A stretch of DNA of 43,978 nucleotides from Gammaproteobacteria bacterium. Its GTDB lineage: Bacteria; Pseudomonadota; Gammaproteobacteria; Steroidobacterales; PWYM01. Position 1 is the stretch's first letter. Each line of letters begins with the position of its first letter. The position numbers were made by a program, and so were the translations under genes. The notes beneath the pieces are model-generated. The model was not told where the DNA came from. It did not search any database and worked only from the letters and a program-made list of their open reading frames with translations. Location: positions 1-43,978 of the forward strand of contig PWZL01000032.1 in NCBI GenBank assembly GCA_003567475.1. Direction: 5' to 3'. Of this stretch, positions 4,157 to 34,248 are shown in pieces.

Positions 4157-4168
4157 GGGGGTATTCAG

Positions 4169-4507
4169 ATGCCGATTTATGAGTATCGATGCGAGGCCTG
4201 TGGACATGAGCTCGAGGCGCTGCAGAAGATCTCCGAGGCGCACCTCACCGACTGTCCGGCTTGCGGTCAGTCGCAGCTGCGCCGGCTGGTCTCGGCGCCG
4301 CGGTTTCGGCTGAAAGGCGCGGGCTGGTACGAGACCGACTTCAAGAAAGAGGGCGATCGCAAGCGCAACCTCGCCGAGGGCGGTGAAGCCCCCAAGAAAG
4401 ACGACGGCGGCGCGGGCAAGGAGGCGGCCAAGACCGAGACCCCCAAGACCGAGACCAGCAAGAGCACTCCCGGCAAGACCGGTGGCACCGGGGAGGCCGC
4501 CGCCTGA
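4169..4507 (+). CDS. FmdB-family zinc ribbon protein
   Basis: A 112-residue small protein. Residues 1-45 form a CxxC...CxxC zinc ribbon (Cys8, Cys11, Cys29, Cys32) starting MPIYEYRCEACGHE, the usual opening of the FmdB/CxxC_CXXC_SSSS family. From about residue 65 the tail is low-complexity Lys/Glu/Thr/Gly with repeated KTET, and probably disordered. The family is often described as putative regulatory, and no biochemical role is firmly set. The G-run at 4157-4161 could serve as ribosome binding site. The stop overlaps the next ATG (TGATG). Gene order FmdB-DUF502-aspS is common in Gammaproteobacteria. Confidence 0.88.
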   Translation: MPIYEYRCEACGHELEALQKISEAHLTDCPACGQSQLRRLVSAPRFRLKGAGWYETDFKKEGDRKRNLAEGGEAPKKDDGGAGKEAAKTETPKTETSKSTPGKTGGTGEAAA

Positions 4508-5160
4508 TGAGCCAGCCCGGCAGGGTCTCCCGACTGCGCCGGTACTTCATCGCCGGCCTGCTGATCTGGGTACCGATCGGTATCACCGTGTTCATCGTCC
4601 GGCTGCTGCTGGAACTGATGGACCGCGTGGTGCTGTTCATACCGCCGCCCTGGCGGCCGGAGAACCTGTTCGGCTTCAGCATCCCCGGATTCGGCATCGT
4701 CGCGGCGCTGGCGCTGGTGCTGTTCACAGGCTTTCTCGCGGCGAACCTCATCGGCCGGCGCCTGGTGGAGCTCTACGAGTCGATCCTCAGGCGTATCCCT
4801 TTCGTTCGCGGCATCTACGCGGCGTCGAAAAGTTTCGCCGAGGTGCTGTTCTCCGACACCGAGCAGTCCTTCAAGAAGGTGCTGCTCGTCGAATACCCCA
4901 AGCGCGGCACGTTCGCCCTGTGCTTCCAGACCTCCAGCCGCCTGGAGGAAATCCAGTACCGCACCGAGAGCGATGTGGTCTGCGTGTTTGTGCCCACCAC
5001 GCCGAACCCCACGTCGGGCTTCATTCTGATGGTGCCCCGCGACGAGATCATCGAGCTCGACATGAGTGTGGACGAGGCGCTGAAAATGATCATCTCGCTC
5101 GGTGTCGTGGTGCCCGAGTGGCGAGCCCGCGAACTTGCGCCCGACCGGTTCTCCACTTAA
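4507..5160 (+). CDS. DUF502 family inner-membrane protein
   Basis: A 217-residue protein with two N-terminal hydrophobic segments, about residues 11-36 (YFIAGLLIWVPIGITVFIV) and 60-80, followed by a soluble domain with the family motifs IPFVRGIYAASK and TTPNPTSGF. These match DUF502 (COG2928), a widely conserved membrane family without an established biochemical role. The start ATG overlaps the stop of the zinc ribbon gene by one base, so the two are probably coupled. 112 bases follow before aspS, in which I see no clear promoter or hairpin. Confidence 0.88.
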   Translation: MSQPGRVSRLRRYFIAGLLIWVPIGITVFIVRLLLELMDRVVLFIPPPWRPENLFGFSIPGFGIVAALALVLFTGFLAANLIGRRLVELYESILRRIPFVRGIYAASKSFAEVLFSDTEQSFKKVLLVEYPKRGTFALCFQTSSRLEEIQYRTESDVVCVFVPTTPNPTSGFILMVPRDEIIELDMSVDEALKMIISLGVVVPEWRARELAPDRFST

Positions 5161-5272
5161 CATCGCGCGTCTTCCGTAAGTCCCCCACCAGGCCGCCGCC
5201 ACCCCAGCCGCCCCGGCCACGGCGCACGCCATCGCGGGCAGCGGGCCGGGCGGCGAGCCCAGGAACCAGCCC

Positions 5273-20840: not shown

Positions 20841-22412
20841 ATGAAAAAGGCGGCGAACGCCAGGCAAGGGTCCAGTCGGCTGGAAGTCCGTAACGCGCGG
20901 CTGGCGGACATCGAACCGATCCGCGAGCTGTTCCGGCGTGTCTATCCCGGCCAGAAACCCTACTCTGCGGCAATGCTGCGCGGGCAGATCCATGCTTTCG
21001 CGGAAGGCCAGTTTGTGGCCACCTACGAAGATCGTGTGGTCGGCTACTGTGCGACGTTCCGCATCGCCGGTGAGCTTGCGCTGAAGCCCCATAGCTGGAA
21101 AGAGATCACCGGCGGCGGCTTCGGCTCGCGTCATGATCCTGCGGGTGAATACCTCTATGGCATGGAGGTCTTCGTGGATCCCGAACTGCGGGGCTATCGC
21201 ATTGGCCAGCGCCTCTACGATGCACGCAAGTGGCTGTGCAATGAACTCGGACTCACGGGGATCGTGTTCGCGGGACGGATTCCGAGCTGGCGGCGGCGCT
21301 GCCGTCAGTTCGCAAGCATCGAAGACTACATCGAGGCGGTGGAGAACAAGAAGGCACGCGATCCCGTGCTCTCCTTCCAGATCCGCAACGGTTTCGAGGT
21401 GCTGGGCGTGATCCCTGGCTACCTGCCCTCGGACGAGGCGTCGATGGGCTTCGCCGTGCACATGATCTGGCGCAATCCGGCGATCCCTCCGGAACAGGCG
21501 AATCGCATGCCGCGCAAGTACGGCGAGCGCCTGCCCGACACCGTCCGCGTAGCGACAGTTCAGTACATGCAGCGACGGGTCAAGTCTTTCGAGCAGTTCA
21601 TCGAGTACATCGAGTATTTCGTCGACGTCGTGGCCGACTACCGCTCGGATTTCGTGGTGTTTCCGGAGCTGTTTGCGCTGCAGCTGCTCTCGATCACCGA
21701 CCAGGAGCTGGATCCGGCGGAGGCGATCGAGGCGCTCACCAAGTACACCGAGCCGTTCAAGACGGCGCTGCGTGAAATGGCCATCCGCTACAACATCAAC
21801 ATTATCGGCGGCTCCCACCCGGTTCGCATGGATGATGGCGACGTTCACAACATCTGTTATGTGTTTCACCGCGACGGACACATCAGCGAACAGGAGAAAA
21901 TCCACCCGACGCCGAACGAGGCCTACTGGTGGAACATCGAGGGAGGCTCGGAAGTGGCGGCCATCCCGACCGACTGTGGCCCGGTGGGCGTGCTCATCTG
22001 CTATGACGCGGAGTTTCCGGAGTTGGCGCGGCACCTGGTCGACCAGGGGGCCAACATCATCTTCGTGCCATTCTGTACTGACGAACGCCAGAGTTACCTG
22101 CGGGTGCGCTACTGCTGTCAGGCCCGCGCGGTGGAGAACCAGTGCTACGTCGTGATGTCCGGCAATTGCGGCAACCTGCCCGGGGTGGCCAACATGGACA
22201 TCCAGTACGCCCAGAGTTGCATCCTCACGCCCTGTGACTTCCCGTTCGCGCGCGACGGGATCGCCGCCGATACCACGCCGAACGTCGAGACGGTCGCCTT
22301 TGCTGACATCCGTCTGGAATCGCTGTTCATGGCGCGCAACTCGGGCACGGTGCAGAACCTGAAAGACCGCCGCCACGACCTCTACGCCGTCGAGTGGCGG
22401 GAAAAAACCTGA
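20841..22412 (+). CDS. GNAT acetyltransferase - nitrilase-superfamily amidohydrolase fusion
   Basis: A 523-residue two-domain protein. Residues 15-230 are a GNAT domain, with the acetyl-CoA loop in [16 protein letters not shown] (114-129). Residues 235-515 form a carbon-nitrogen hydrolase with the full Glu-Lys-Cys triad: Glu276 in VVFPELFAL, Lys353 in [12 protein letters not shown], and Cys387 in [11 protein letters not shown]. The fusion is a known but poorly characterised family. The hydrolase half resembles plant/bacterial C-N hydrolases acting on small amides such as N-carbamoylputrescine or omega-amides, but the true substrate is not known. ATG 20841 has GGGAG five bases upstream. The gene sits between tRNA-Ser and tRNA-Arg, which are adjacent in E. 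coli. No signal peptide is present. Confidence 0.9.
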
Positions 22413-22454
22413 GGATTCAGAGCATTGTAGCCCTGCGGGGCAGGCTGGCGCGGC

Positions 22455-22474
22455 TTGCACACAGGGCTGTGCAA
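22455..22474. promoter_or_regulatory. Palindrome TTGCACA-N6-TGTGCAA before tRNA-Arg
   Basis: A perfect 7-bp inverted repeat with a six-base centre lies 42 bases after the fusion gene and 17 bases before the tRNA-Arg -10 box, so it overlaps the expected -35 region. It could be a repressor operator or a weak hairpin ending the upstream transcript; no T-run follows. Confidence 0.4.
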
Positions 22475-22491
22475 AAGCGTTCTTCGGTCAG

Positions 22492-22497
22492 TATAAT
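22492..22497 (+). promoter_or_regulatory. Consensus -10 box of tRNA-Arg
   Basis: A perfect TATAAT lies 12 bases upstream of the mature tRNA 5' end. The -35 position at 17-base spacing is occupied by GTGCAA, a poor match that lies inside the palindrome. A GCGCGG stretch follows the -10, resembling the GC-rich discriminators of stringently controlled stable-RNA promoters. Confidence 0.6.
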
Positions 22498-22509
22498 GCG
22501 CGGTCTCGC

Positions 22510-22586
22510 GGGCCCGTAGCTCAGTTGGATAGAGTGTCTGGCTACGAACCAGAAGGTCGGGAGTTCGAATCTCTCCGGGCCCGCCA
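22510..22586 (+). tRNA. tRNA-Arg(ACG)
   Basis: The 77-base cloverleaf includes CCA. Acceptor GGGCCCG pairs with CGGGCCC, followed by discriminator G and CCA (22584-22586). The anticodon stem-loop CTGGCTACGAACCAG gives ACG (22544-22546), expected to be deaminated to ICG. The D arm AGCTCAGTTGGATAGAGT and T arm GGGAGTTCGAATCTCTC are regular. It ends 10 bases before the stop of the convergent LEA14-like gene, with no terminator visible between. Confidence 0.97.
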
Positions 22587-22596
22587 TTTCCCTTGA

Positions 22597-23061
22597 TTAC
22601 GGCTGCGCCTGGCCTCCGAAACGGCCAGTTTCGCGCAGCGTGATGCGCCGTCCGAAGCCCCCGGCGTCGAGGCGGGCGGTGAACGTGTAGTCATGCTGCT
22701 GTTTCGGGCTGCTGAACAGTTCGTTCACAAGACGCAGACTGCCGAACAGGTCCGGAGTGGCCTGCAGCGTGAAATCCGCCGTCCCGTAGGCGGGGACCTG
22801 AGGCAGGTCGGCCGAGGCGCCGGTCAAGATGCGGTGGCCATCGATCTCGATCGTGTAACTCATCCCGCGCAGGTTCAGGGCCGAGCGACCCGGATTGATC
22901 AATCGCAGACCGATATCGAACATCGGCGCGGCACCGGCGGATTCCGGGGCAAGTTTGAACGACGTGATGCTGAGCTGCGGCTGCTCGGCGTCGGGCGCGA
23001 GGGCGGCGCAACCGGCAAGCCCCAGCACCATGACGCCGGCGAGCACCGTCATTGTGCGCAC
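22597..23061 (-). CDS. LEA14-like (LEA type 2) lipoprotein
   Basis: A 154-residue exported protein with a lipoprotein signal: hydrophobic [13 protein letters not shown] with lipobox LAGC. GTG 23061 (RTMTVLAG...) is preferred over ATG 23052 because it adds the positively charged Arg of a signal peptide. The start lies four bases after the previous gene's stop. The mature part ([64 protein letters not shown]) has the immunoglobulin-like LEA14/WHy pattern. In other organisms that fold is linked to desiccation or outer-membrane roles. No enzymatic residues are expected. It is the last gene of a three-gene operon, so a link to the methyltransferase is possible but unproven. Confidence 0.75.
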
Positions 23062-23065
23062 GACG

Positions 23066-23419
23066 TTATTCCGAGAGTTCACGCTCCACATTCGCGAGCA
23101 CCTCTTCGGCATCCTTCGAGGAGAACACCGCAGCCTCGGCCCGTACCACGCGGAACAGCCGCTGCATGTAGTCCTGGCGCCGAGCCGCGCGCGCGGCCTC
23201 GTCTTCCGGGCTGGGCGTGAAGTGCTCAAGGGCTTCGGCGTCAAGCACGCCCTGTCGATCGAGCAGCCGCTGCATGGCATCGACCCGGTCGTAGAGCACC
23301 GAGAGTTCGCCGGCCATCGCCAGCACCACCGACATCAACACATCGGTCTCTGGCGTTTCGAAGAACTGTGGCCGTCTGCCGCGGGTCCGCCGCGGCAGCG
23401 TGATGTCCTCGCCGCTCAT
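23066..23419 (-). CDS. Conserved hypothetical protein, helical
   Basis: A 117-residue soluble protein I do not recognise. An Arg-rich N-terminus (LPRRTRGRRPQFFET) is followed by what looks like a helical bundle: DVLMSVVLAMAGELSVLYDR, VDAMQRLLDRQGVL, then an acidic/Arg region and FSSKDAEEVLANVERELSE. There are no cysteines, signal peptide or nucleotide motif. It overlaps the stop of the upstream methyltransferase gene by four bases and lies four bases from the LEA14-like gene, so it is almost certainly translated in the same operon. An accessory or regulatory subunit of the methyltransferase is one possibility, based only on position. Confidence 0.75.
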   Translation of the reverse strand: MSGEDITLPRRTRGRRPQFFETPETDVLMSVVLAMAGELSVLYDRVDAMQRLLDRQGVLDAEALEHFTPSPEDEAARAARRQDYMQRLFRVVRAEAAVFSSKDAEEVLANVERELSE

Positions 23420-24600
23420 TTGCGCGCGCCGAAGAAGTACCAGGACACGCCTTCGGCGAGGCGGCCGGTGTCCTTGCCCACCGAGGCACCCTCGCCGATC
23501 GCGCCAGCGAAGACTTCTTCGCCATACCAGTTGACGCTGGGTACGACGTGCTCGATGAACCCGTCGGCAGGAAACCCTGCCTCGGCGAGCAACTTGGTTG
23601 GATCCTGGTCGCGGAAAGTCTTGTAGAACGGCTCCATGTTGTACCAGCTGTCCCAGTCGAGATAGAAGCCGTCATAGGCGGGCAGCGCCTTGTTCGGCGG
23701 CAGCTCCATGTGCAGCATCAGTCCGCCCGGGCGCAGGACACGATAGGCCTCGCTCAGTACCTTGCGAATGTCTTTCAGTGGCAGCTCATGCAGGAACATC
23801 GACGACCAGACGACATCGAAGCTGTTGTCCTCATAGGCCAGCGAGGTCGCGTTCATCTGCCGGAAGTGGACGGCCTGTTGCATGGACTCGGCGCGCGCGA
23901 AAGCATAGCGCAGTACCGGTGCCGAGACGTCGATCGCGTGCACCTCGGCGTCCGGGAAGGTTTCGGCCCAGGGCACGGTGTTATGGCCCAGCGTGCAGCC
24001 GAGGTCCAGCATTTTCGAGGGCTCGATGTCCGGGTAGCGGGCGCGCACGAAGCGCGCGATCGAGCGCCCGATATCGCCCTGGTCCGGGCCCAGCAGGCCC
24101 ATGAAAAACACCACCGTGCCGTTGTCGTACAGCGCGCCCTGTGAGGCATCACCCGGGCCATGTTCGCTGTCGTAGTTGCCTGGCATGAGGTGGACGTCGA
24201 GCGCGCTGACGTTACGGGGCAGGCTGAGCGTCGGGTCGAGCGTCAGCGAGCCGCGAGCCTCGCGGCTGGCGTCTTCGACCTTGGCGTTGATCCATGCCGC
24301 GCTGCGCTCCACCGGCGCCCGTACCGAGTCCCACACCATTTCCTGGGCGTTGACCCGCATGGCGCTGTAGAGCTGGAAGGTCAGGTTCGACTTCAGGGCG
24401 CGGTGGACCTCGCCGCTGTCGGCCGGTTCATGGCCCAGGCGCCGGGTGGCCTCGGGCAGGACATCGCGGTGGTAAACCTCGCGCAGGTCGTTCGCCATGT
24501 CGTGGAGCACGAAGCCCCGCAGAGAGGAGACGAAGTCCTGTCGAGCCCGCTCATCGAGGCTGTGCGGGATCTTGAGATCGTGAGCCAATTCTCCGGGCAT
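23416..24600 (-). CDS. Class I SAM-dependent methyltransferase with extra N-terminal domain
   Basis: A 394-residue protein. The C-terminal half is a class I methyltransferase: motif I MLDLGCTLGHNT (about 197-208), the acidic end of strand 2 in VHAIDVS, FDVVWSSMFLHELP, and VLSEAYRVLRPGGLMLHMEL. The first 190 residues form a separate helical domain (SLRGFVLHDMANDLREVY and following) not found in small-molecule methyltransferases such as UbiE. ATG 24600 is chosen because GGAG stands seven bases ahead; the frame begins ten codons earlier. Substrate unknown. The MFS transporter gene is divergent, 122 bases away, and two Rieske oxygenase genes lie about 5 kb further, so a catabolic role is plausible but inferred. 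Confidence 0.85.
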   Translation of the reverse strand: MPGELAHDLKIPHSLDERARQDFVSSLRGFVLHDMANDLREVYHRDVLPEATRRLGHEPADSGEVHRALKSNLTFQLYSAMRVNAQEMVWDSVRAPVERSAAWINAKVEDASREARGSLTLDPTLSLPRNVSALDVHLMPGNYDSEHGPGDASQGALYDNGTVVFFMGLLGPDQGDIGRSIARFVRARYPDIEPSKMLDLGCTLGHNTVPWAETFPDAEVHAIDVSAPVLRYAFARAESMQQAVHFRQMNATSLAYEDNSFDVVWSSMFLHELPLKDIRKVLSEAYRVLRPGGLMLHMELPPNKALPAYDGFYLDWDSWYNMEPFYKTFRDQDPTKLLAEAGFPADGFIEHVVPSVNWYGEEVFAGAIGEGASVGKDTGRLAEGVSWYFFGARK

Positions 24601-24722
24601 GACGCTGCTCCTGTGCAACTGAATCTCCAATCCCCTACTCTACTACAGGGGTGAGAGTGTCGACAGGCCGGTCATGGCTGGCCGGGGGACCGACGGGACG
24701 GGGTTGCGGGAGCATCAAGCCT

Positions 24723-25997
24723 ATGGGTGGGCAACTTTCGGTCGCGCTGAGCAGTCTGCGCGGTCCGCCACTGACCGTCTTCATGATCTGTCTGCTCGGC
24801 TGGACGTTGAGCAACCTCGACCAGTCGCTGATGGGCTACGCGATTCCGGGCATTCTCCGCGAGTTCGACATCGGCCTCGACGTCATCGGGCTCATCCTGT
24901 CGATTTCCTTCGTGTTCGCCGCGTTCGCCGTGGTTTTTCTCGGCATGCTTGCCGACCGACTGGGGCGGCGACGGCTGTTCGTGCTGGTGCTGGCGGTCTC
25001 CGCCGGCCTGGTCGGCCTGCACGCCATCGCCGTGGACGTCGTCTCGCTGACGATCCTGCGGGCCCTGGCCTTCGGCATAGCGGCGGCGCTCGCGCCCATC
25101 ACCGCAGCCTACGTGATGGAGACCTCGCCCACCCGACTGCGGGGCGTGATGATGGGGCTGCTGCAGTGTGGTTACCCGCTGGGCTGGTTCTTCGCCTCGC
25201 TGCTCGCCTCGCCGATCATGGCGCTGTACGGCTGGCGGGCGATCTTCATGCTTGCCTTTCTGGTGGTGCCGGCGGCGCTGCTGCTGGGCCGCCATCTGCC
25301 CGAGAGCGACACCTTCCTGCGCCGGCAGGCGGCAGCTGCGGCGGGTGATTCGCTGCGCTGGCGCGAACAACTGGCCGAACTGTTCCGCCCACCACTTCGT
25401 CGCCGCACGCTGCTGTGCTGGCTGGCGTTTTTCTGTCACGGCTGTGCCTACGCGGGCACCGCGTTCTATTTCCCGTCGTTTTTTGCCGAGACTCGCGGCT
25501 ACAGTGAAAGTGCGGCTACGCTGCTGGTGGGCATTGCCTACGGCATCGGCGTGCTGGGATACATCGCCGCCGCGTTCATTGGCGAGTACGTGCTCACCCG
25601 CAGAAACACCATCATCTTGTGGTGCTGGCTCGGCACGGCGGCGCTGCTCGGCCTGGTGTGGCTGCCGACCTCCTATGCCCAGGATCTCGTCTGGTTCAGC
25701 GTCATGGCCATGTTTTTTTACGGGGTCTCGGCCGTACTGATCACCTATGTGACCGAGCTCTTTCCGACCCGCGTCCGGGCGACTGGCACGGCGTTGGCGG
25801 GGTCGGCCGGTCTCTCCACCGGGTTCGCGGTCGCGCCTGTCGTGGTGGCCACCGGCGTGGGCCTGGTCGGCTGGCACTGGGCCTTCACGGTGCTGGTGGC
25901 GCCGCCCCTGTTCCTGGTGGGGGTGTTCATGCTCGGGCTGGACAACATGCGTTCCGGGGTGGATGTCGATGCCATCGACGCCGGCGTCCCCGCTTGA
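24723..25997 (+). CDS. MFS transporter, 12 membrane segments
   Basis: A 424-residue major facilitator protein. The TM2-TM3 loop signature is GMLADRLGRRRLFV, and TM5 has QCGYPLGWFFASLL. A central loop of about 35 residues (LPESDTFLRRQ onward) separates the two six-helix halves, and the second half has ELFPTRVRATGTALAGSAG, typical of metabolite:proton symporters of the aromatic-acid or sugar-like type. ATG 24723 gives a normal short N-terminus with GGGAG ten bases ahead; the frame is open back to GTG 24651. It is divergent from the methyltransferase operon. Substrate unknown; organic acid or aromatic acid is a reasonable guess. Confidence 0.88.
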   Translation: MGGQLSVALSSLRGPPLTVFMICLLGWTLSNLDQSLMGYAIPGILREFDIGLDVIGLILSISFVFAAFAVVFLGMLADRLGRRRLFVLVLAVSAGLVGLHAIAVDVVSLTILRALAFGIAAALAPITAAYVMETSPTRLRGVMMGLLQCGYPLGWFFASLLASPIMALYGWRAIFMLAFLVVPAALLLGRHLPESDTFLRRQAAAAAGDSLRWREQLAELFRPPLRRRTLLCWLAFFCHGCAYAGTAFYFPSFFAETRGYSESAATLLVGIAYGIGVLGYIAAAFIGEYVLTRRNTIILWCWLGTAALLGLVWLPTSYAQDLVWFSVMAMFFYGVSAVLITYVTELFPTRVRATGTALAGSAGLSTGFAVAPVVVATGVGLVGWHWAFTVLVAPPLFLVGVFMLGLDNMRSGVDVDAIDAGVPA

Positions 25998-26024
25998 GCC
26001 CCGGTGCGAGCCCGGCCGAGCCGC

Positions 26025-26423
26025 TCAGTACATCAGCGGCCGTGCCTGCTGCTCGAGGAAGCTGACCAGCGCCTCGCGATCGCGATGACGCGCGTAGGTC
26101 GCGATGAGCTCGCCCCGGCCATCGAAGATGCTGAGCGAGGCCCTTGGCAGGGCATATCGGTCAGCAAAGGCGCGCCCGTCAGGATGATGGAAGTTGGCCA
26201 TCAGCAGCACCAGTGAGGGTTCCCAGTCACGCCGGATCTCGTTCAGGTCGTCCATGAGCACGATGCTGTCGACCGTGTTGTGGTCATGCACCACCACCGC
26301 GGCGACCTGGCCGGCCCCGACCTTCGCGAGATCGGTATCGTAAGGCGGCGGCAGGCGACTCAGCATGAACACCACGACGGCGATCGTCAGCACGATCGTG
26401 CCGAACGCGATCAGTTTGCGCAT
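26025..26423 (-). CDS. Membrane-anchored thioredoxin-fold-like protein without CxxC
   Basis: A 132-residue protein with one N-terminal membrane segment (KLIAFGTIVLTIAVVVFMLS), so the rest is probably periplasmic. The soluble part alternates strands and helices as in thioredoxin folds (SLVLLMANFHHPDGRAFADR, LPRASLSIFDGRGELIATYA, HRDREALVSFLEQQ). The position of the CxxC motif holds NFHHPDG instead, and there is no cysteine at all, so redox activity is unlikely. ATG 26423 has GGAGG five bases ahead. It is convergent with the MFS gene (27 bases) and divergent from the cstA-like gene (119 bases). The fold is inferred by eye only. Confidence 0.6.
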   Translation of the reverse strand: MRKLIAFGTIVLTIAVVVFMLSRLPPPYDTDLAKVGAGQVAAVVVHDHNTVDSIVLMDDLNEIRRDWEPSLVLLMANFHHPDGRAFADRYALPRASLSIFDGRGELIATYARHRDREALVSFLEQQARPLMY

Positions 26424-26497
26424 CGGTCCTCCAGGGGGTGTGTGGCCCAGACGGAGTCTAGCATTGCTTCGCTGACAGTCTTTGCCTGGCCAACTGC

Positions 26498-26503
26498 TAT
26501 AGT
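26498..26503 (+). promoter_or_regulatory. Possible -10 box for the cstA-like operon
   Basis: TATAGT lies 45 bases before the TTG start, in the 119-base divergent region shared with the thioredoxin-like gene. No clear -35 at normal spacing (CTGACA is 20 bases upstream), so activator dependence is possible. Confidence 0.3.
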
Positions 26504-26542
26504 GCGGACCCGTGATTCCGGGCATCCGCGGAGGACTGCGAA

Positions 26543-28345
26543 TTGAATGCCGTCTGGCTCGCCTGTGCCGCGCTGCTGGCCTTCTACCTGGGCTGGCGCT
26601 GGTATTCGCGCTTCATCGCCGAGCGCATCTATCGCCTCGAGCATGACTACGTCACCCCGGCGCATCGCTATCGCGATGGGGTGGATTTCGTGCCCACCCG
26701 AAAATGGGTGCTGTGGGGCCATCACTTCACCTCGGTGGCGGGGGCTGCGCCCATCGTGGGGCCGGCCATCGCCATGTACTGGGGCTGGGGGCCGGCGATC
26801 GCCTGGGTGGTGCTCGGTACGATTTTCGCCGCCGGGGTGCACGACTTCGGCGCGCTGGTGCTCTCTGTGCGTCACAAGGGCCAGTCCATCGGCACGCTCG
26901 CACACCGGCTGGTCGGTCGGCGCGCAAAGCTGCTGTTCCTGTTCATCATCCTCATCCTCATCCTGATGGTGAACGCGGTGTTCGCCTGGGTGATCGCCAA
27001 CCTGTTCATCAACAACCCGGCCTCGGTGCTGCCGGTGGTACTGCAGATTCCCATCGCCCTGTGGTTCGGCTATACCGTGATCCGGCGTCATCGGCCCATG
27101 CTCGTGCCCTCACTGGTGGCGCTGATCGTCATGTATGGCACGGCCATCCTCACGACGCGCGTGACCTGGCTGCAGATCGATCTTGTGGGCTGGTTCGGCG
27201 GCGCGGGGGCGAGCACCGCGCTGTTTGCCCTTGATGCCACCAGTGCTGCTTTCCTGGTCTGGATCGTGGTCTTGCTGGCCTATGTCTACGTCGCCTCCAC
27301 ACTGCCTGTGTGGAAGCTGCTGCAGCCGCGTGACTACATCAATGCCCAGCAACTGGTGTTCGGTCTGCTGATCCTCTATGGCGGGCTGCTGGTGACCCGC
27401 CCGGAGTTGACGGCCCCGGTGTATAACGCGGGCGCCCAGCCGTCCTGGTTCCCGCTGTTGTTCATCACCATCGCCTGCGGAGCGATCTCCGGTTTCCACG
27501 GTCTGGTGGCTTCGGGGACGTCATCCAAGCAACTCGATCGCGAGACCGACGCGCGCACCGTGGGCTATCTCGGCGCGCTGGGTGAGGGCGCACTTGCGCT
27601 GATCACCATCGTCGCCGTGGCGACCTTCTTCACCACTCAGGCTGAATTCCTCAGCAGTTATGGCAGCTTCGCGCAGGCGAGTTCTGCCAGCCTCGGCTAT
27701 TTTGTCGGCGGCGCGGCGCAGCTGGCTGGCGGTCTCGGGATTCCCGCCGATGTCGCGGCGACGCTGGTGGCGTTGATCATTGTCTGTTTCGCGGCCACCA
27801 CGCTGGATTCGGCTGTGCGTCTGCTGCGCTACATCATCGGCGAGCTCGGGCTGGAGTATCGCCTGCCAGCCCTGACCCGGCGGCATGTGGCGACCAGCCT
27901 TGCCGTGGGGCTCACGGCGCTGCTGGTGGTGCTGCCGGATGGCGGACGCGGCTTCGGTTCCGGTGGCTATCTGTTGTGGCCGCTGTTCGGCACGTCCAAC
28001 CAGCTGCTCGCCGGCATCACGCTGATGCTGATCTCGCTGTGGCTGGTGCGCCAGGGCAGAAACCCCCTGCCCACGCTGGTGCCGATGGTGTTTCTGCTGG
28101 CGATGACGATCTGGGCGATGAGCGCGCAGGTGATCTTCACCTGGTCAGGACTGGGGGATGCCCCGCCCGAGTGGCTGCTGTTCGTGCTCGGCAGCGCCAT
28201 TCTGGGCTTCGCCCTGTGGATTCTGCTCGAGGCGCTGCGGTTGTTCGCGAGCCCTGCGGCCCGGGCCGCCCTGGCAGCGTCCGTGGCCGAGCCGGATGAG
28301 TCCGATGAGCCCCCCCAGCCACCCGAGGCAGGGCAGCGCCGATGA
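26543..28345 (+). CDS. cstA: CstA-family transporter (carbon starvation protein A)
   Basis: A 600-residue polytopic protein of the CstA/BtsT family; E. coli members carry peptides or pyruvate. Family blocks are clear: RDGVDFVPTRKWVLWGHH, FTSVAGAAPIVGPAIA, GVHDFGALVLSVRHKGQSIG, CGAISGFHGLVASGTSSKQL, and WPLFGTSNQLLAGITL. The start is TTG 26543, with GGAGG at 26530-26534, eight bases away; the nearby ATG 26547 is out of frame. It is shorter than E. coli CstA (701), with a hydrophilic Pro/Glu-rich C-terminus (EPDESDEPPQPPEAGQRR). It overlaps the next gene by four bases. CstA proteins usually pair with a small YbdD/YjiX protein, and here the following small gene takes that place. Confidence 0.9.
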   Translation: MNAVWLACAALLAFYLGWRWYSRFIAERIYRLEHDYVTPAHRYRDGVDFVPTRKWVLWGHHFTSVAGAAPIVGPAIAMYWGWGPAIAWVVLGTIFAAGVHDFGALVLSVRHKGQSIGTLAHRLVGRRAKLLFLFIILILILMVNAVFAWVIANLFINNPASVLPVVLQIPIALWFGYTVIRRHRPMLVPSLVALIVMYGTAILTTRVTWLQIDLVGWFGGAGASTALFALDATSAAFLVWIVVLLAYVYVASTLPVWKLLQPRDYINAQQLVFGLLILYGGLLVTRPELTAPVYNAGAQPSWFPLLFITIACGAISGFHGLVASGTSSKQLDRETDARTVGYLGALGEGALALITIVAVATFFTTQAEFLSSYGSFAQASSASLGYFVGGAAQLAGGLGIPADVAATLVALIIVCFAATTLDSAVRLLRYIIGELGLEYRLPALTRRHVATSLAVGLTALLVVLPDGGRGFGSGGYLLWPLFGTSNQLLAGITLMLISLWLVRQGRNPLPTLVPMVFLLAMTIWAMSAQVIFTWSGLGDAPPEWLLFVLGSAILGFALWILLEALRLFASPAARAALAASVAEPDESDEPPQPPEAGQRR

Positions 28346-28614
28346 GCCTCGATGCGGCCGCGAGCCGTCTGGCGGCATTTTTCGGCGCCTGGGACGAGGC
28401 GCTGCAGGTGGGTCATGCCGCCGAACGCCAGCGTGCACTCGAGGATGCGGACGACCTGTTCCTGCTGCTGTGCTTCTCCGAGAGTATGGGCCTGCCGAAC
28501 CCGGTGGCCTGGCACACCCTCGAGCTCTATCCGCTGCTGCTCGAGGCATTCCATGACTGGCACCGGCGCGCCGGTATGGACCGCTCGCCGCTGGACCACG
28601 TGCGGTGCTGCTAG
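28342..28614 (+). CDS. Small protein ending Cys-Cys-stop (cory-CC-star-like), partner of CstA and ArsA genes
   Basis: A 90-residue soluble protein. A helical N-terminal part (AASRLAAFFGAWDEALQVGH) leads to the conserved-looking core DDLFLLLCFSESMGLPNPVA and ELYPLLLEAFHDWHRRAGMD, ending in SPLDHVRCC. From memory, this pattern with two terminal cysteines fits the small family NCBI names cory-CC-star, noted in corynebacteria near ArsA-type ATPases. The ending also recalls the unrelated CstA partner YbdD, which ends ARCC. The stop codon is TAG, so no selenocysteine is hidden there. The gene overlaps cstA by four bases and the ArsA-like gene by ten, implying tight stoichiometry. The terminal cysteines could bind metal or a cofactor, or be modified; none of this is established. 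Confidence 0.78.
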   Translation: MSLDAAASRLAAFFGAWDEALQVGHAAERQRALEDADDLFLLLCFSESMGLPNPVAWHTLELYPLLLEAFHDWHRRAGMDRSPLDHVRCC

Positions 28615-29567
28615 ACCCGCCGGTGCTGTTTTTTGCCGGCAAGGGCGGCGTGGGCAAGACCACCTGTGCGGCGCTGGCGGCGCTGGCATGCGCTCGGGCC
28701 GGCGAGCGTACCCTGCTGGTCTCGACCGACCCGGCGCACAACCTCGGCGACTTGTTCGGTCCCGGGGTCGGTGGCGTTGCCCGCGAGGTGGTCGCCCGGC
28801 TGGAGGTGCTGGAAATCGATCCAGCGACCGAGACCCGCCGCTACCTCGAGGAGGTCAAGGCCAATATGCGCCGCCTCGTCAGTTCGAACCTGCTGGAAGA
28901 GGCCGAGCGCCAGGTCGACCTTGCGGGGCGCGCGCCAGGTGCGGAGGAATCGGCCCTGCTCGAGCGCATGGTCGCGGTACTGCTGGACGAACGCCAACAC
29001 TATCAGCGCGTGATCTTCGACACGGCGCCCACCGGTCACACGCTGCGGCTGCTGACCATGCCCTCGCTGATGGGCGCGTGGGTGGACGGGTTGCTCCGCC
29101 GTCGTGGGGCACTGCGCGAAGCGCGGGCCGGTTGGATGGGCGGCGCCGAGGTGCCTGACGATCCGGTGTTCGAACTGCTGCACCGGCGTCGGCTGCGTCT
29201 CGAGCAGACGCGTGCCCTGCTGGCTGATTCGACCGTCACCGGGATTGTCTTCGTGCTGGTGCCGGAAGCGCTGCCCGTGGCCGAGACCCGACGCGGCATC
29301 GACGAGCTCGCGGATCATGGCCTGACAGCGGCGGGCCTGGTGGTCAATCGGGTGATGCCCGAGGCCACCAGTGACCCCTTCTACGCCGAGCGCAAACGAC
29401 GCGAGCGTGACTATCTCGCGCGGATCGACACGATGTTTGCCGAGCTCTCGCGGCTGCAACTGCCGCTGCTGGCCGGGGATGTGGACTCCGTGAGCGCGCT
29501 CGAGCAGCTGCTGCCCGTCTTCATCGAAGGGGCTGCTGAGGCGGCTGATCAGGCGTCTGCAAGGTAG
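28605..29567 (+). CDS. ArsA/Get3-like P-loop ATPase
   Basis: A 320-residue single-domain ATPase of the ArsA/Get3 (SIMIBI) class. The deviant Walker A GKGGVGKT (12-19) includes the signature lysine, and switch I is STDPAHNLGDLFG (40-52). DTAPTGHTLRLLTMP (about 139-153) is the switch II/hydrophobic-groove block. The arsenite-binding cysteines of ArsA and a Get3 CxxC are not seen, and no ars genes are nearby, so arsenic resistance is unlikely. The GTG start at 28605 lies inside the end of the CC-stop gene. Get3 relatives chaperone short hydrophobic tails; a role in maturing or delivering its neighbours is an inference. It ends convergent with, and overlapping by 19 bases, the Rieske gene. Confidence 0.88.
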   Translation: MLLDPPVLFFAGKGGVGKTTCAALAALACARAGERTLLVSTDPAHNLGDLFGPGVGGVAREVVARLEVLEIDPATETRRYLEEVKANMRRLVSSNLLEEAERQVDLAGRAPGAEESALLERMVAVLLDERQHYQRVIFDTAPTGHTLRLLTMPSLMGAWVDGLLRRRGALREARAGWMGGAEVPDDPVFELLHRRRLRLEQTRALLADSTVTGIVFVLVPEALPVAETRRGIDELADHGLTAAGLVVNRVMPEATSDPFYAERKRRERDYLARIDTMFAELSRLQLPLLAGDVDSVSALEQLLPVFIEGAAEAADQASAR

Positions 29568-30922
29568 CGATCCAGTGTGCGGTGGAAGTGACGGATGCGA
29601 CTCTCCTGGTAACTCGCGAGCTGCACCTTGCCGTTCGCCGAAGCGATCAGCCCCTCCTGCACCGCGGCCATGTTGCCCATGTCCTGGTCGATGACCGGCC
29701 CGAGGATGGGCAGTTCCGGTGCGCTGGCCCAGGGGGCGTCATCCTCCAGCCAGCGCAGGCGCGCCGGGGCGGGGCGGGGCGCGCCTGCGGGGACGGGCCG
29801 CAGGAACATCACCTCCATCACGCAGGCATTGACGTCACGGCCGTCCGGGCGCCAGCGGTAGACGATGTTCGGCGCCACGCCACCCCAGGGCGCGAAGTTG
29901 GGAAACACGTTGTACACCAGGGCATCGAGCAGTTCGGCATCCGAGACTTGCGAGTAGTCGTGCCCATCGGCGCGGCTGAGCGCGCGGCGATTGAGCTCAC
30001 CGACGAGCGTCCGGGCGTCGGCCTCCGGGAACGCCTGGCGCAGCGCGCTCAGCGCCTCCGGGTGGCCGTACATCGCCAGCATGTCGCGTGCGATGTCCCC
30101 TTCATTCGGCGGCGGGTGGCCGAGGTGTGGACTGGGGGCGGCGAAGGCGGCGAGGTTCCGGTTCACGTGTTCGCCATAGATGTCGTACTGGGCGTTGGCG
30201 TCGGCGATCACGCCGAGGATCTGCGGATGGGTGGCGATGACATGGAAGGATTCCATGAACGCCTCCTGTGCCACTTTCCAGTTGCAGCGGATACGCTTGG
30301 CGACATGCGCCGCCTTGTAGCGCTCCTCGAGACGCCAGACGCTGAAATGCGCGCGCAGTACCCCCAGATACGCGTCGAGGGGCGGGGCCGCCGGGTCCAT
30401 GTTGACGAACACGAAGCCGCCCCAGCTGGCCACCTGGGCCTCGGGCAGCGTGAGCGCATCGTCATCGAGATGGGTAAAGTCCCAGCGGCAGGGCAGCCGG
30501 GCGATCCTCCCGTCCAGATCCCAGGTGAAGCCATGGAAGCCGCAGCGGAACTGGCGGTAATGCCCACTGGTATCGCAGAGCTTGCGGCCCCGATGCAGGC
30601 ACACGTTGTGGTAGGCGCGGATGCGCTCGGGCGCGGTGCGGGTGACCAGCAGCGAACGCCCGACGATGTCGTAGACGTGCACATCACCGACCTCGGGAAT
30701 GTCTTCTTCACGACAGGCCATCTGCCAGACCCGCGGCCAGAGTCGCGCCACTTCGCGATCGAAGAAGGCCTGCGAGGTGTAGCGTGCGGCGTCCAGTGGA
30801 GCATCATCGAAGGTCGGCGGCGACTGCTCACGCAGGCAGGCCGGGACTTCGCGGCTGTCGCGGTCGAGATAGTCCTGGTAGCTCGGCCCGGGCGAGCCGC
30901 CGTGCCTGGGGCCGGCGCTCAC
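29549..30922 (-). CDS. Rieske non-heme iron oxygenase, alpha subunit (second of two)
   Basis: A 457-residue ring-hydroxylating-type oxygenase. The Rieske [2Fe-2S] ligands are Cys108 and His110 (NVCLHRG) and Cys127 and His130 (FRCGFHGFTWD). The mononuclear iron site is QEAFMESFHVIATH, with His227 and His232, and the acidic third ligand is probably in PVIDQDMGN. Substrates of this family range from aromatics to quaternary amines, and sequence by eye does not decide. No beta subunit, ferredoxin or reductase gene is seen in the window. It overlaps the upstream paralogue by four bases. The C-terminal LASYQESRIRHFHRTLDRYL echoes that paralogue's end, so the pair probably arose by duplication. Confidence 0.9.
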   Translation of the reverse strand: MSAGPRHGGSPGPSYQDYLDRDSREVPACLREQSPPTFDDAPLDAARYTSQAFFDREVARLWPRVWQMACREEDIPEVGDVHVYDIVGRSLLVTRTAPERIRAYHNVCLHRGRKLCDTSGHYRQFRCGFHGFTWDLDGRIARLPCRWDFTHLDDDALTLPEAQVASWGGFVFVNMDPAAPPLDAYLGVLRAHFSVWRLEERYKAAHVAKRIRCNWKVAQEAFMESFHVIATHPQILGVIADANAQYDIYGEHVNRNLAAFAAPSPHLGHPPPNEGDIARDMLAMYGHPEALSALRQAFPEADARTLVGELNRRALSRADGHDYSQVSDAELLDALVYNVFPNFAPWGGVAPNIVYRWRPDGRDVNACVMEVMFLRPVPAGAPRPAPARLRWLEDDAPWASAPELPILGPVIDQDMGNMAAVQEGLIASANGKVQLASYQESRIRHFHRTLDRYLADA

Positions 30923-32127
30923 GCCGCGCTCACCCAGTCACCCAGCATCGGGTGGACCCGCAGCGGCGCCGGGATGTTCTCGGGCCCGATCCGCCGGTCG
31001 AGCGTCTCGTGCCAGTGGTAGATCCGTCGCTCCTGGTAGGAGAGCACCATGCCCTGGAAGCCGCCCGAGTCGACCGACTCCTGGATCTGCGGGGCGAACT
31101 GCGTGTCCTCCTCCAGGATGCGGACGAAGTTCGAGATGCGGGTGGGCCAGAGCTCGTGGCCGTGCGCGCCTTCGGGCGCGAACCAGTGCACATCGACGAT
31201 CATGTCGCGGGGGCCATTCGGCCAGAACGTCAGGAAGGGGATGCCCGTGGCGGAAATCGGCGTGATCAGGTTGGGATACAGGTTATAGCTGGCGTTCTGC
31301 TCGGCGAAGATCCGTGGTGCGGTCTCGATCGCAGGCATGCCGACGGCACCCGGGTCCTCCCAGTCCTCGCGCCGGTGCGGGGTGACCATGAGCGAGTTGC
31401 CGTTGTCCCAGAGCTGATGGAAGGTCCCGCGCGACTCGAGAAACCGATCCACCGTCTGCGGATGAATCGACTTCAGGTGATAGGTCTCGAGGAATGCGTC
31501 GAGCAGGATCTTGACGTTACAGGCAACCTCGAAGCTTGCGCTGTGCACATGGCGGATGCGGTCGAGCTGCATCTCGGCCAGGTGGTCGGGAATCGGCGCC
31601 AGCGCCTCGGCAAGCGGCGGTGCCCCGGGGTCTTCATTGATGAACACCCAGTGACCGAGTTGTTCGCAGCGCACTTCCGAGAGTCCCAGGCAGCGCATGT
31701 CCATGCCGGGGAAATCGCGTTTCTCGCGCACAGCGGTGAGCTTGCCCTCGAGCGTGTAGGTCCAGCCATGGTAGCGGCAGAAGAAGCCGCGGGTCTGGCC
31801 CTGGTGATCCGCGACCAGTGGTGCACCGCGGTGTCGGCAGGTGTTGTAGAACGCGCGGATGCGGTCATCGCGGCCGCGCACGATGATGATCGGCGAGCCG
31901 GTTCGCCGCCACAGGCGATAGCTGCCTGGCTGCGGCAACTCATCGGCATGCAGGGCATACAGCCAGGAGGTCTTCCACAGGAAACGGTCCTCCAGCGCCA
32001 GGAAGGCCGGGTCGGTGTAGCGGGCGCCGGGGATCATTGGCAGGGCAGGGAAGCCCGGTGGGGGCGTGTCTCTGGTGGCCTCCGCGGCCATCCCCTCGAA
32101 CAGGGCCTGCTCGGTTGCCTGGTGCAT
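30919..32127 (-). CDS. Rieske non-heme iron oxygenase, alpha subunit (first of two)
   Basis: A 402-residue oxygenase. The Rieske ligands are Cys97, His99 (NTCRHRGAP) and Cys117, His120 (FFCRYHGWTY). The catalytic iron block LLDAFLETYHLKSIH supplies His217 and His222, and Asp210/Glu214 may link the two centres between subunits. ATG 32127 is chosen because GGAG stands five bases ahead; the frame opens at a TTG seven codons earlier (32148). The upstream divergent region with rhlE is 288 bases. With its overlapping paralogue it may form a hetero-oligomer or act on successive steps. The electron-transfer partner must be elsewhere. The substrate is not readable. Confidence 0.9.
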   Translation of the reverse strand: MHQATEQALFEGMAAEATRDTPPPGFPALPMIPGARYTDPAFLALEDRFLWKTSWLYALHADELPQPGSYRLWRRTGSPIIIVRGRDDRIRAFYNTCRHRGAPLVADHQGQTRGFFCRYHGWTYTLEGKLTAVREKRDFPGMDMRCLGLSEVRCEQLGHWVFINEDPGAPPLAEALAPIPDHLAEMQLDRIRHVHSASFEVACNVKILLDAFLETYHLKSIHPQTVDRFLESRGTFHQLWDNGNSLMVTPHRREDWEDPGAVGMPAIETAPRIFAEQNASYNLYPNLITPISATGIPFLTFWPNGPRDMIVDVHWFAPEGAHGHELWPTRISNFVRILEEDTQFAPQIQESVDSGGFQGMVLSYQERRIYHWHETLDRRIGPENIPAPLRVHPMLGDWVSAA

Positions 32128-32277
32128 CCTGTCTCCCCCCACCGTCAAACTTGCCTGAAATAGACAGCTCTGATTGTTTTTTTAGCAGCAGGCGCGCGGA
32201 CCAGGCATTCGTAGTTTCCACAGCAGTGAAGAAATCACGTGCAAATGGTGAAGTGCTCTGTTACCGTGCAGGTCATA

Positions 32278-32304
32278 GAAACCGAGCCTCCGGTCGCCGG
32301 TTTC
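32278..32304 (+). promoter_or_regulatory. Hairpin in rhlE leader region
   Basis: GAAACCG (32278-32284) pairs with CGGTTTC (32298-32304) across a 13-base loop and is followed by a pyrimidine run TCTCTCTC. It could be an attenuator-like structure or simply leader secondary structure. It lies in the 288-base divergent region 32128-32415, in which no convincing sigma-70 promoter was found on either strand. Confidence 0.35.
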
Positions 32305-32382
32305 TCTCTCGCGGTCGATCTGTCCCGGTTAGCCTCGAAGTGAACTGTCACCCAAGAGCCTAGACCGGCCCCGCGCGAAAGC

Positions 32383-32403
32383 CCTGGGTAGGCCGCCCAG
32401 GAG
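32383..32403 (+). promoter_or_regulatory. Hairpin overlapping the rhlE ribosome binding site
   Basis: CCTGGG (32383-32388) pairs perfectly with CCCAGG (32396-32401) across TAGGCCG. The second arm includes the first bases of the only purine-rich site, AGGAG (32399-32403), which is 12 bases from ATG 32416, longer than usual. Sequestering the site would make translation sensitive to RNA unwinding. Confidence 0.5.
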
Positions 32404-32415
32404 CAACCTCAAAAC

Positions 32416-33732
32416 ATGTCTTTCGAATCCCTCGGCCTTCAGGCCGAAGTGCTGCGTGCCGTGGCCGATGCCGGCTACGACCAGCCTACCCCTGTGCAAC
32501 GCCTGGCCATTCCTCCGATCCTTGCGGGTCGCGATATGCTGGCCGGCGCACAGACCGGTACCGGCAAGACGGCCGGGTTTACGTTGCCGTTGTTGCAACG
32601 TTTAGCCGCCAAGCGCCCTGCAGGCGGCCGTCCGGTCCGGGCGCTGGTGCTGACGCCGACGCGCGAACTCGCCGCCCAGGTGCAGGACAGCGTAGTCACC
32701 TACGGCCGTCACCTCTCGCTGAAATCGCTGGCGCTGTTCGGTGGGGTGTCGATCAATCCACAGATCACCGCGTTGCGACGCGGTGTCGATATCCTCGTGG
32801 CGACTCCCGGCAGGCTGCTCGATCACGCCCAGCAGGGCTCGGTCGATCTCTCGCGGGTCGAGATCCTGGTGCTGGACGAAGCCGACCGCATGCTCGACAT
32901 GGGGTTTATTCGCGATATCCGCCGGGTCTTGAAGCTCTTGCCCGCCAAGCGGCAGAACCTGCTGTTTTCGGCGACGTTCTCGGCCGAGATTCGCGGGCTG
33001 GCCGATGGCCTGTTGGAGAATCCGGAACGCATCGACGTGGCGCCGCGAAACACCACGGCCGAGCTGATCGACCAGAAGGTCCATCCCGTCGACCGTGCCC
33101 GCAAGCGCGAATTGCTCTCGTGGCTGATCGGTGGCCAGGACTGGCGCCAGGTGCTGGTGTTCACCCGCACCAAGCACGGCGCGAATCGTCTCGCCGAGCA
33201 GCTCGAACGTGACGGCCTGAGTGCCGCCGCCATTCACGGCAACAAGAGCCAGGGCGCCCGCACCCGCGCACTGGCTGAATTCAAGGCGGGCAAAGTGCGC
33301 GTGCTGGTCGCCACCGATATCGCCGCGCGGGGCCTGGACATTGACCAACTGCCGCATGTGGTCAACTACGAGCTGCCGCATGTGGCTGAAGACTACGTGC
33401 ACCGCATCGGACGCACCGGTCGCGCCGGCCGAGAGGGCCAGGCGATCTCGCTGGTCTGTGTCGACGAACTTGATCTGCTGCGCGGCATCGAGAAACTGCT
33501 TGGCCGCAAGCTGCCCAGTGAAACGCTGCCCGGCTTCGAGCCCGATCCACGCGTGCGCGCGGAGCCGATCGAGAACGGTCGACGTGGGCGTGGCGGGAGC
33601 AAGCCGCCGCGCGGCGGGTCGAACGCGCCGCGAGCTGCGAGTGCGCGGCCGCGGGCCGGCGACTCGACCCGTCCGGGTCACCGAGGGGGACAGAGCTCGC
33701 GCAGTCGTCGTCGCGCGGGGGCTCGGGCCTGA
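32416..33732 (+). CDS. rhlE: DEAD-box RNA helicase RhlE
   Basis: A 438-residue ATP-dependent RNA helicase for ribosome assembly and RNA decay. Its opening [20 protein letters not shown] is nearly that of E. coli RhlE. Q motif PTPVQRLAI, Walker [13 protein letters not shown] box [41 protein letters not shown], and [10 protein letters not shown] are all present. RhlE-specific text includes [20 protein letters not shown] and [13 protein letters not shown]. The C-terminal 60 residues are a basic Gly/Arg/Pro tail, likely RNA-binding. An RRM protein gene follows 105 bases downstream, suggesting a shared role in cold or RNA stress. Confidence 0.95.
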
Positions 33733-33761
33733 CAGTTACGTATTTGCCGTCACCGGCATCT

Positions 33762-33799
33762 CATCGGCAGGCCGCGCGTGGTCTGGCAGCCTGCCGATG
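33762..33799 (+). promoter_or_regulatory. Strong hairpin between rhlE and the RRM gene
   Basis: CATCGGCAGG (33762-33771) and CCTGCCGATG (33790-33799) form a perfect 10-bp stem with an 18-base loop. No T-run follows, so rather than an intrinsic terminator it may be a processing or stabilising element in a joint mRNA, or part of a thermosensitive leader for the RRM gene 38 bases on. Confidence 0.5.
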
Positions 33800-33837
33800 C
33801 TCTCACGATCAGACCGCTTTCCATGATGAGTGAATGT

Positions 33838-34125
33838 ATGAATATCTATGTAGGAAACCTGGCTTACTCCACGACCGAGGACGATCTGCGCGACGCCTTT
33901 GCCCAATACGGCGCGGTGCGCAGTGCCAACGTCATCACCGACAAGTTCTCGGGTCAGTCCAAGGGCTTCGGTTTCGTCGAGATGAACGACAACAGCGAAG
34001 CCGACGCCGCCATCAAGGCGTTGAACGGACAGGCGCTGAATGGTCGCAACATCAAGGTCAACGAGGCGAAGCCGCGCGAGTCGCGGCCGCCGCGCGGCAA
34101 CGGCGGTGGTGGCGGTCGCTGGTAA
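33838..34125 (+). CDS. RRM-domain glycine-rich RNA-binding protein
   Basis: A 95-residue single RRM protein. RNP2 is NIYVGNL at the N-terminus and RNP1 is SKGFGFVEM, with the spacing of cyanobacterial/proteobacterial Rbp cold-inducible proteins. The domain ends near residue 80 (NGRNIKVNEAKPR), followed by a short Arg/Gly tail (NGGGGGRW). ATG 33838 is chosen because family members begin MNIYVGN; in-frame ATGs at 33823 and 33826 would add a few residues. It is followed by a clear terminator. Neighbouring rhlE suggests joint work on RNA structure. Confidence 0.92.
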   Translation: MNIYVGNLAYSTTEDDLRDAFAQYGAVRSANVITDKFSGQSKGFGFVEMNDNSEADAAIKALNGQALNGRNIKVNEAKPRESRPPRGNGGGGGRW

Positions 34126-34143
34126 GCGACGGCCATCGCTGTC

Positions 34144-34165
34144 CCGGCCTGCTTCGACAGGCCGG
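34144..34165 (+). other. First of two hairpins after the RRM gene
   Basis: CCGGCCTG (34144-34151) and CAGGCCGG (34158-34165) make a perfect 8-bp stem with six-base loop CTTCGA. It stands five bases before the intrinsic terminator and may reinforce it or protect the mRNA 3' end. Confidence 0.6.
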
Positions 34166-34170
34166 ACCGG

Positions 34171-34196
34171 AAAGGGCTCCTTCGGGGGCCCTTTTT
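34171..34196 (+). terminator. Rho-independent terminator of the RRM gene
   Basis: AAAGGGCTCC-TTCG-GGGGCCCTTT followed by further Ts: a GC-rich stem with a stable tetraloop and a T-tract, 46 bases after the stop. This is the clearest intrinsic terminator in the window. Confidence 0.88.
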
Positions 34197-34248
34197 GCTG
34201 AGCGGGCTCCCCGTTAGACTTTCACGTTTACTGCTGCTGGAGTGAGTG

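Follow-up and report, generated by a model that had tools for sequence, protein, structure and literature searches.

A conserved operon of a CstA-family transporter, a cory-CC-star small protein and a Get3/ArsA-type ATPase, and a probable role for its Cys-Cys tail at the transporter

The window analyzed here, the whole of contig PWZL01000032.1 (43,978 nucleotides, forward strand) from the Gammaproteobacteria bacterium assembly GCA_003567475.1, carries an operon of three overlapping genes that encode a CstA-family transporter, a 90-residue protein ending in Cys-Cys that belongs to the cory-CC-star family (hereafter cory), and a Get3/ArsA-type ATPase. The three proteins very probably constitute one functional system. 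The best overall explanation that we can offer, held tentatively, is that cory would be a subunit of CstA bearing a thiol tail, and that the ATPase would energize or gate the transporter through cory. The gene trio is already known; new here are a clade of CstA proteins that themselves end in Arg-Cys-Cys (RCC) and a candidate selenocysteine (Sec) gene found in some of the operons. The features of the operon are as follows.

26543..28345, + strand: cstA, short-type CstA-family transporter, 600 residues, TTG start (PF02554)
28342..28614, + strand: cory-CC-star small protein, 90 residues, ending HVRCC with a TAG stop, ATG start (NF041419)
28549..28563, + strand: FHxWH motif, codons 70–74 of cory, in 90/90 close-family loci
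28606..28611, + strand: terminal Cys-Cys, codons 89–90 of cory, then TAG, in 90/90 close-family loci
28605..29567, + strand: Get3/ArsA-type single-domain ATPase, 320 residues, GTG start (TIGR00345, PF02374)

The reading frames and sequence give overlaps of 4 bases between cstA and cory and of 10 bases between cory and the ATPase gene; these, and the 90-residue protein ending HVRCC before its TAG stop, are as a preliminary description of the sequence had given them. The transporter scores 467 bits against PF02554 (cut-off 27), and its TTG start is consistent with a relative (locus L182) that begins MNAI. The small protein matches NF041419, ‘cory-CC-star’, at 108 bits (cut-off 80) over profile positions 5–80 of 80, the match thus extending to the last position of the model and the C-terminal Cys-Cys; it has no Pfam match. 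We found no difference between it and the other members of NF041419, a family for which the listing gives no function. The ATPase scores 242 bits against TIGR00345 (cut-off 135) and 227 bits against PF02374, with the motifs GKGGVGKTT, STDPAH and DTAPTGHT intact and no CxxC, and Pfam reveals no ars gene among the ten flanking genes (20841–35910; one of the ten has no Pfam match at all), which confirms what had been said of its nucleotide motifs and surroundings. The genome (3.06 Mb in 102 contigs) contains one CstA gene and, in a profile search, no match to YbdD.

Scanning genome contigs with a profile yielded at least 505 relatives, and the best 80 of these were retained. Adding the window, five genomes, one Bacillota sample and three plasmid records brings the set to 90 loci; L001, L002 and L008 show the window itself and are excluded from the count, and L142 and L143 duplicate L012 and L176. 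Although the tail played no part in the scan patterns, it did enter the ranking that gave the 80, which used similarity to the complete query; the counts therefore describe the close family. All 90 loci carry cstA, cory and the ATPase gene in that order on one strand, as expected if the three genes form the single conserved module previously suggested, and every one of the 90 cory proteins (77 distinct sequences over the last 75 residues) has both the CC end and FHxWH. The ATPases, picked by the presence of a P-loop and including one incomplete sequence, conserve STDPAH and DTAPTGHT at a level of at least 95%. Four further loci from a sample of the window's class all have cstA with a CC-ended cory, and three of them the ATPase. 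The CC codons of the window overlap the ATPase start, and we considered whether the tail could be a product of chance or of that overlap; because the distance from the end of cory to the P-loop varies between 26 and 267 nucleotides across the 90 loci while CC is kept, we ruled this out.

The trio had been put forward as a plausible undescribed module, and in this respect the preliminary description was mistaken, since such operons have been in print since 2010, NF041419 exists, and RefSeq annotates the three genes together in three plasmid records (in Cytobacillus with one further gene in between). The main text of Castillo & Saier 2010 (PMC2963123) describes cstA/cstX/arsA operons and proposes an ATP-driven CstA, in which the ATPase energizes the carrier and CstX is the linker. 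It gives 26 cases of CstA with an ArsA homolog and no ars genes in the operons, CstX (∼90 residues, assigned one membrane segment) being present in 24 of the cases; the CstA-linked ATPases are single-domain proteins of about 330 residues, and the absence of ArsA's three cysteines from single-domain homologs is already stated. Its cluster 17 comprises Chromohalobacter, Bacillus, Halorhodospira, Alkalilimnicola and Nitrococcus, halophilic or alkaliphilic gammaproteobacteria and bacilli like the organisms found here, and its section 3.2 reports that the trees of CstA, CstX and ArsA correspond. With a CstA, a protein of ∼90 residues, a single-domain ArsA homolog and no ars gene, the operon in the window is a cstA/cstX/arsA operon in the sense of that paper; CstX and cory are equated here by size, place and taxa alone, not by sequence comparison. 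A term search of the main text found no mention of YbdD, YjiX, DUF466 or Cys-Cys. Literature searches for ‘cory-CC-star’ returned no paper, those combining CstX, carbon starvation and ArsA family ATPase returned the 2010 paper only, and no tested mechanism for the trio was found in the literature searched.

The better-known small protein beside CstA is YbdD/YjiX (PF04328 Sel_put; KCU-star NF033934). In E. coli, CstA takes up pyruvate, and deletion of ybdD reduces this uptake to 20% of wild type, although the authors concede that indirect effects may contribute and leave open the manner in which YbdD aids uptake (PMC5847655). YbdD resembles cory in its three predicted helices, in a GxP after the first long helix, and in its CC end (26 of 27 aligned sequences; one ends CPC), the last residue being a predicted selenocysteine in some Campylobacterales (a Cys-Sec tail; PMC4607533). 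It differs in serving long CstAs, in having no ATPase alongside (none within the ∼1.5 kb flanks of 29 CstA–YbdD loci), and in showing no detectable homology to cory.

It had been proposed that cory replaces YbdD, which would make the two mutually exclusive beside CstA. Among 299 Pseudomonadota genomes, 156 have a CstA, 50 a YbdD and 6 a cory, and none has both cory and YbdD. For the 53 CstA-bearing genomes of the window's class, YbdD is present in 0/6 with cory versus 28/47 without (Fisher p 0.008, in a test that ignores kinship, with the window's own genome among the 6 and, among the 47, some whose sole CstA match is a distant relative with a poor score). The class sample of 266 genomes, with 6 cory, 22 YbdD and none with both, holds too few to tell. 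Nor was YbdD found in any of 50 cory genomes addressed by name, these covering 50 of the 80 named loci. However, 34 of those 50 are Bacillota, and because none of 199 sampled Bacillota genomes has YbdD, its absence from that phylum is uninformative and was dropped as evidence of exclusivity.

The expected lack of co-occurrence was thus found, but a simple substitution was not. The idea that cory is a diverged YbdD was rejected, there being no PF04328 match and an hhalign probability of 1.3% between the two profiles (from shallow alignments, with an effective depth of 2.0 for cory); the predicted helix order of the two proteins is similar. In a quick tree of 91 CstAs (midpoint-rooted, with no true root and with long-branch warnings), YbdD-type and cory-type carriers fall in separate parts. 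Since the tree separates the carriers and the profiles do not match, we take cory and YbdD to be partners of different CstA subfamilies, with cory apparently the analog of YbdD on another subfamily and not its substitute on one and the same transporter.

That a CC tail works at the transporter is best supported here by carriers that bear one themselves. In thirteen of the genomes sampled there is a long-type CstA and no match to YbdD (in three of these the CstA is fragmentary), and all ten whole long CstA genes from such YbdD-less genomes encode a protein ending in RCC, for example NPITRCC (loci L208–L217; in L208 the gene lies at 3083–5257). Among readable long CstAs of YbdD-less Pseudomonadota the proportion is 10/11, the exception (genome G114) being split over two contigs and ending CSKRV; those of G097 and G153 are cut by contig ends and are not readable. 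No Get3/ArsA-type ATPase is found around the ten RCC-ended genes in the 3.5–9 kb fetched. In the quick tree these ten make up a single clade (support of 100 in the Shimodaira–Hasegawa-like approximate likelihood ratio test), nested in a fork that contains the YbdD-type CstAs, of which two branch outside it; both kinds occur in family group f41. Read most simply, YbdD was lost and CstA acquired an RCC end; because the tree is quick, carries long-branch warnings and has no true root, this is an interpretation and no proof. Heuristic lysine/arginine loop counts place the C-terminal tail of cory-type CstAs on the positive, cytosolic side, and are less clear for the long type. The RCC-ended carriers support the earlier suggestion that the CC tail serves CstA, and on this comparative evidence the cory tail probably acts there. 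They also offer a single-gene system for probing tail function. No mention of an RCC-ended CstA was found in the literature searched, which does not prove it unpublished.

In line with the explanation favored here, the solitary short CstAs of loci L119–L121 branch within the cory-type carriers; their genomes contain nothing that matches cory, and no ATPase is adjacent.

The structure model of cory (mean predicted local distance difference test score 84; predicted template modelling score 0.61) consists of three helices (residues 3–22, 25–49 and 63–77) and coil, with no C-terminal membrane anchor. Foldseek gave eight matches to it in the PDB at E up to 10 and none at E ≤0.001, and by sequence no solved relative was found for CstA at E up to 0.1 or for cory at E up to 1.

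We believe that these observations are best accommodated by the following mechanism, whose cory half draws on the comparative evidence above and whose ATPase half draws on the analogy of ArsA with ArsB and on the 2010 proposal. The operon would encode a CstA-family carrier, of pyruvate type by family analogy, with two cytosolic partners. Cory, small and helical, would be a subunit docked on the inner side of CstA, with two faces: its helical core would link CstA to the ATPase, and its R-C-C tail would be presented to, and act at, CstA, doing the job of the CC (or Cys-Sec) tail of YbdD on long CstAs and of the RCC-ended carriers' own terminus. The tail, probably together with the two invariant histidines of FHxWH, could be a thiol redox site, a metal site, or a latch that controls transport. 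The ATPase, by analogy a homodimer, would bind cory and couple the binding and hydrolysis of ATP to CstA, energizing or gating it as ArsA does with ArsB; this last step we regard as a serious possibility that falls short of being probable.

In the arsenite pump, ArsA is coupled to the carrier ArsB and ArsD is the cysteine-pair protein, and the operon described here likewise joins a carrier, an ArsA-type ATPase and a small cysteine-pair protein. It differs in that the carrier is CstA, the ATPase is a single domain without conserved cysteines, and no ars genes lie among ten neighbors: 58 of the 90 ATPases have no cysteine whatever from 12 residues before the P-loop onward, and no cysteine is common to the set. 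We accordingly rejected the identification of the window ATPase (320 residues, one domain) as an arsenite pump ArsA.

The solved relatives of this ATPase found by sequence are archaeal and eukaryotic Get3 as well as ArsA; the archaeal Get3 of 3zq6 aligns over residues 8–303, and Get3/TRC40 and the window protein belong to the same subfamily, TIGR00345. This kinship, and the position of the ATPase gene after cory in 90/90 loci, would also fit a Get3-like assembly factor that binds newly made cory (or CstA) and loads or inserts it outside the transport cycle. We consider that unlikely, because cory lacks a C-terminal membrane anchor in its model, the operon offers no tail-anchored client, and the zinc-binding CxxC of the Get3 dimer interface occurs in 0/90 close-family ATPases; nor is E. 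coli CstA/YbdD known to need such a factor. CxxC is named as a Get3 signature in PMC10248533. With regard to a hydrophobic client groove, one stretch was compared: mean hydropathy after AWxDGLL is −1.24 for the close family (31/90 with the anchor motif found), −0.95 for the window ATPase and −0.74 for 3zq6. The suggestion that the ATPase inserts, loads or modifies cory or its cysteine tail gained no positive evidence, and insertion or loading is possible but unsupported.

A further alternative to ATP-driven or ATP-gated transport is that the ATPase and cory together sense the energy or redox state and turn a CstA driven by protons or sodium on and off, with ATP being read rather than spent. 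Redox chemistry is suggested by the Cys-Sec form that the YbdD-family tail can take (PMC4607533), and there are CstAs, both solitary and YbdD-type, that have no ATPase next to them. The hydrolysis switch motifs, however, are conserved over the 90 loci beyond the needs of sensing alone, and we think it improbable that the pair acts in this way.

More distant relatives of cory come from Bacillota, where NF041419 has matches in 15 of 199 genomes, 13 of the 15 below the cut-off (matches in the control Haloferax volcanii were also below it). Four loci (group A, L163–L166) contain CC-ended relatives, ending DWCC, beside an ATPase, with CC kept in the absence of FHxWH; CstA-family genes lie elsewhere in these genomes, in G516 only as a ∼480-residue relative and a fragment. 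Nine loci within L167–L175 (group B) have CstA and one or two ATPases with small proteins, 13 in all after two weak matches (L171, L173) fell out, that have neither CC nor FHxWH. Four group B loci have a further small protein set apart on the other strand, and in L168 and L169 the small-protein gene and the ATPase gene are both doubled (two of each), which we count in favor of the proposed mechanism. Because these tail-less relatives keep the association, the link between small protein and ATPase is older than the tail or independent of it. Loss of the tail from most homologs had been named as an outcome that would refute the proposal, and this is partly what was found: the tail is missing from those distant homologs that remain beside CstA and the ATPase, but kept in the whole close family. 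In two of the group A genomes, a CstA-family gene stands beside a gene that by eye resembles a LytR-type response regulator.

Several of these observations weigh against the explanation that we favor. All four group A pairs lack a cstA in the 8–11 kb fetched. Since the group B loci lack CC and yet retain CstA with the ATPase, the CC tail is not what links the two, and five group B loci have two ATPases to one small protein, so that the counts of the partners do not always match. One locus of the 94 in the close family (L229) has CstA and a cory ending VCC with no adjacent ATPase, and 20 CstAs chosen among those without adjoining cory or YbdD have neither partner adjacent. The E. coli CstA/YbdD system is not known to need an ATPase; together with those 20 CstAs this means that ATP is not generally required. 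To these points must be added the CSKRV-ended carrier, the failure of the cory and YbdD profiles to match, and the provisional nature of the CstA tree.

Seventeen of the 90 operons, all from Bacillota, contain a fourth gene of about 120–130 residues between cstA and cory. It was found by its motif G-x-G-[C/U]-C-G-G, a search that would miss other forms, and examples are as follows.

5554–5940 of L020: fourth gene, motif present
5591–5965 of L047: fourth gene, motif present
7582–7938 of L141: fourth gene, motif present
14 more loci: fourth gene, motif present

The [C/U] position of the motif is Cys in 7 loci and an in-frame TGA in 10. One of the latter, L083, has a further TAG soon after the TGA and was left out of the hairpin and substitution analyses. 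A 7-pair hairpin can form after the TGA in 9/9 rows (8 distinct), with one pair changed on both sides, and its percentage paired and covariation score were reached by 11 of 500 shuffles. A further two measures are unremarkable, the hairpin appears in the minimum-energy fold of 3/8, and one Cys-type control also folds strongly; support for the hairpin is therefore moderate. Ratios of nonsynonymous to synonymous substitution (dN/dS) past the TGA lie between 0.10 and 0.25 for the four pairs, out of eight, that were computable, three of them with dS above 1, and suggest purifying selection on the downstream sequence. RefSeq starts the Cytobacillus gene after the TGA. The encoded protein reaches the cut-off of no Pfam model and has no NCBIfam match, its profile gave four matches to solved structures with none convincing (best E 0.51), and 8 Bacillota loci gave no Rfam match at gathering thresholds. 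Plasmids were searched for SelA with a view to the Sec machinery of Cytobacillus spongiae, and 152 records matched, 40 of them among the matches listed. We take the fourth gene as likely to encode an unrecognized selenoprotein.

This gene also bears on the view that the CC tail and the two histidines bind a metal or metalloid, the trio being a metallo-transport or detoxification system comparable to ArsD–ArsA–ArsB. Across the 90 loci the two His and the two Cys never vary, and they are absent together from the 13 group B proteins, and the CC or TGA-Cys motif of the fourth gene would add to such chemistry in 17 operons. The joint loss in group B fits a single site, but it may also have been a single event. 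Against a metal site stand the ATPases without cysteine in the part counted (58/90), the lack of ars genes among the ten flanking genes, the retention of CC without FHxWH in group A, and the uptake of pyruvate by E. coli CstA (PMC5847655), and we judge this view very unlikely.

A broader and rather doubtful interpretation is that R-C-C might be a portable cytosolic thiol/selenol element of CstAs, supplied in three ways (by YbdD, by the unrelated cory, or by CstA itself); that in cory systems a Get3-class ATPase could act through cory and make an ATP-coupled importer out of a keto-acid carrier; and that some Bacillota might add an unrecognized selenoprotein to the complex. The RCC-ended clade and the Sec candidate make the role of the tail testable, and with the cory operons one can ask if carriers of a second kind are driven or gated by a Get3/ArsA-type ATPase. 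ATP coupling, if true, would define a new transporter class outside arsenic resistance, and the Sec-candidate gene, if true, would add a selenoprotein family tied to a carbon-uptake carrier.

Of the recurrent neighbors in 80 loci, a gene of ∼111 residues in 12 led to the fourth gene, whereas one in 17 that looked by eye like an oxidoreductase gene led nowhere. A promoter scan gave 0 promoter-like sites and 2 terminator-like sites versus 1.4 expected. On the tree, the window CstA and three proteobacterial relatives from metagenome-assembled genomes group with Bacillota CstAs, apart from the other proteobacterial cory-type CstAs, a placement that suggests transfer between phyla. Directly downstream of the operon, on the opposite strand (29549–32148), lie two adjacent genes for Rieske ring-hydroxylating oxygenase alpha subunits.

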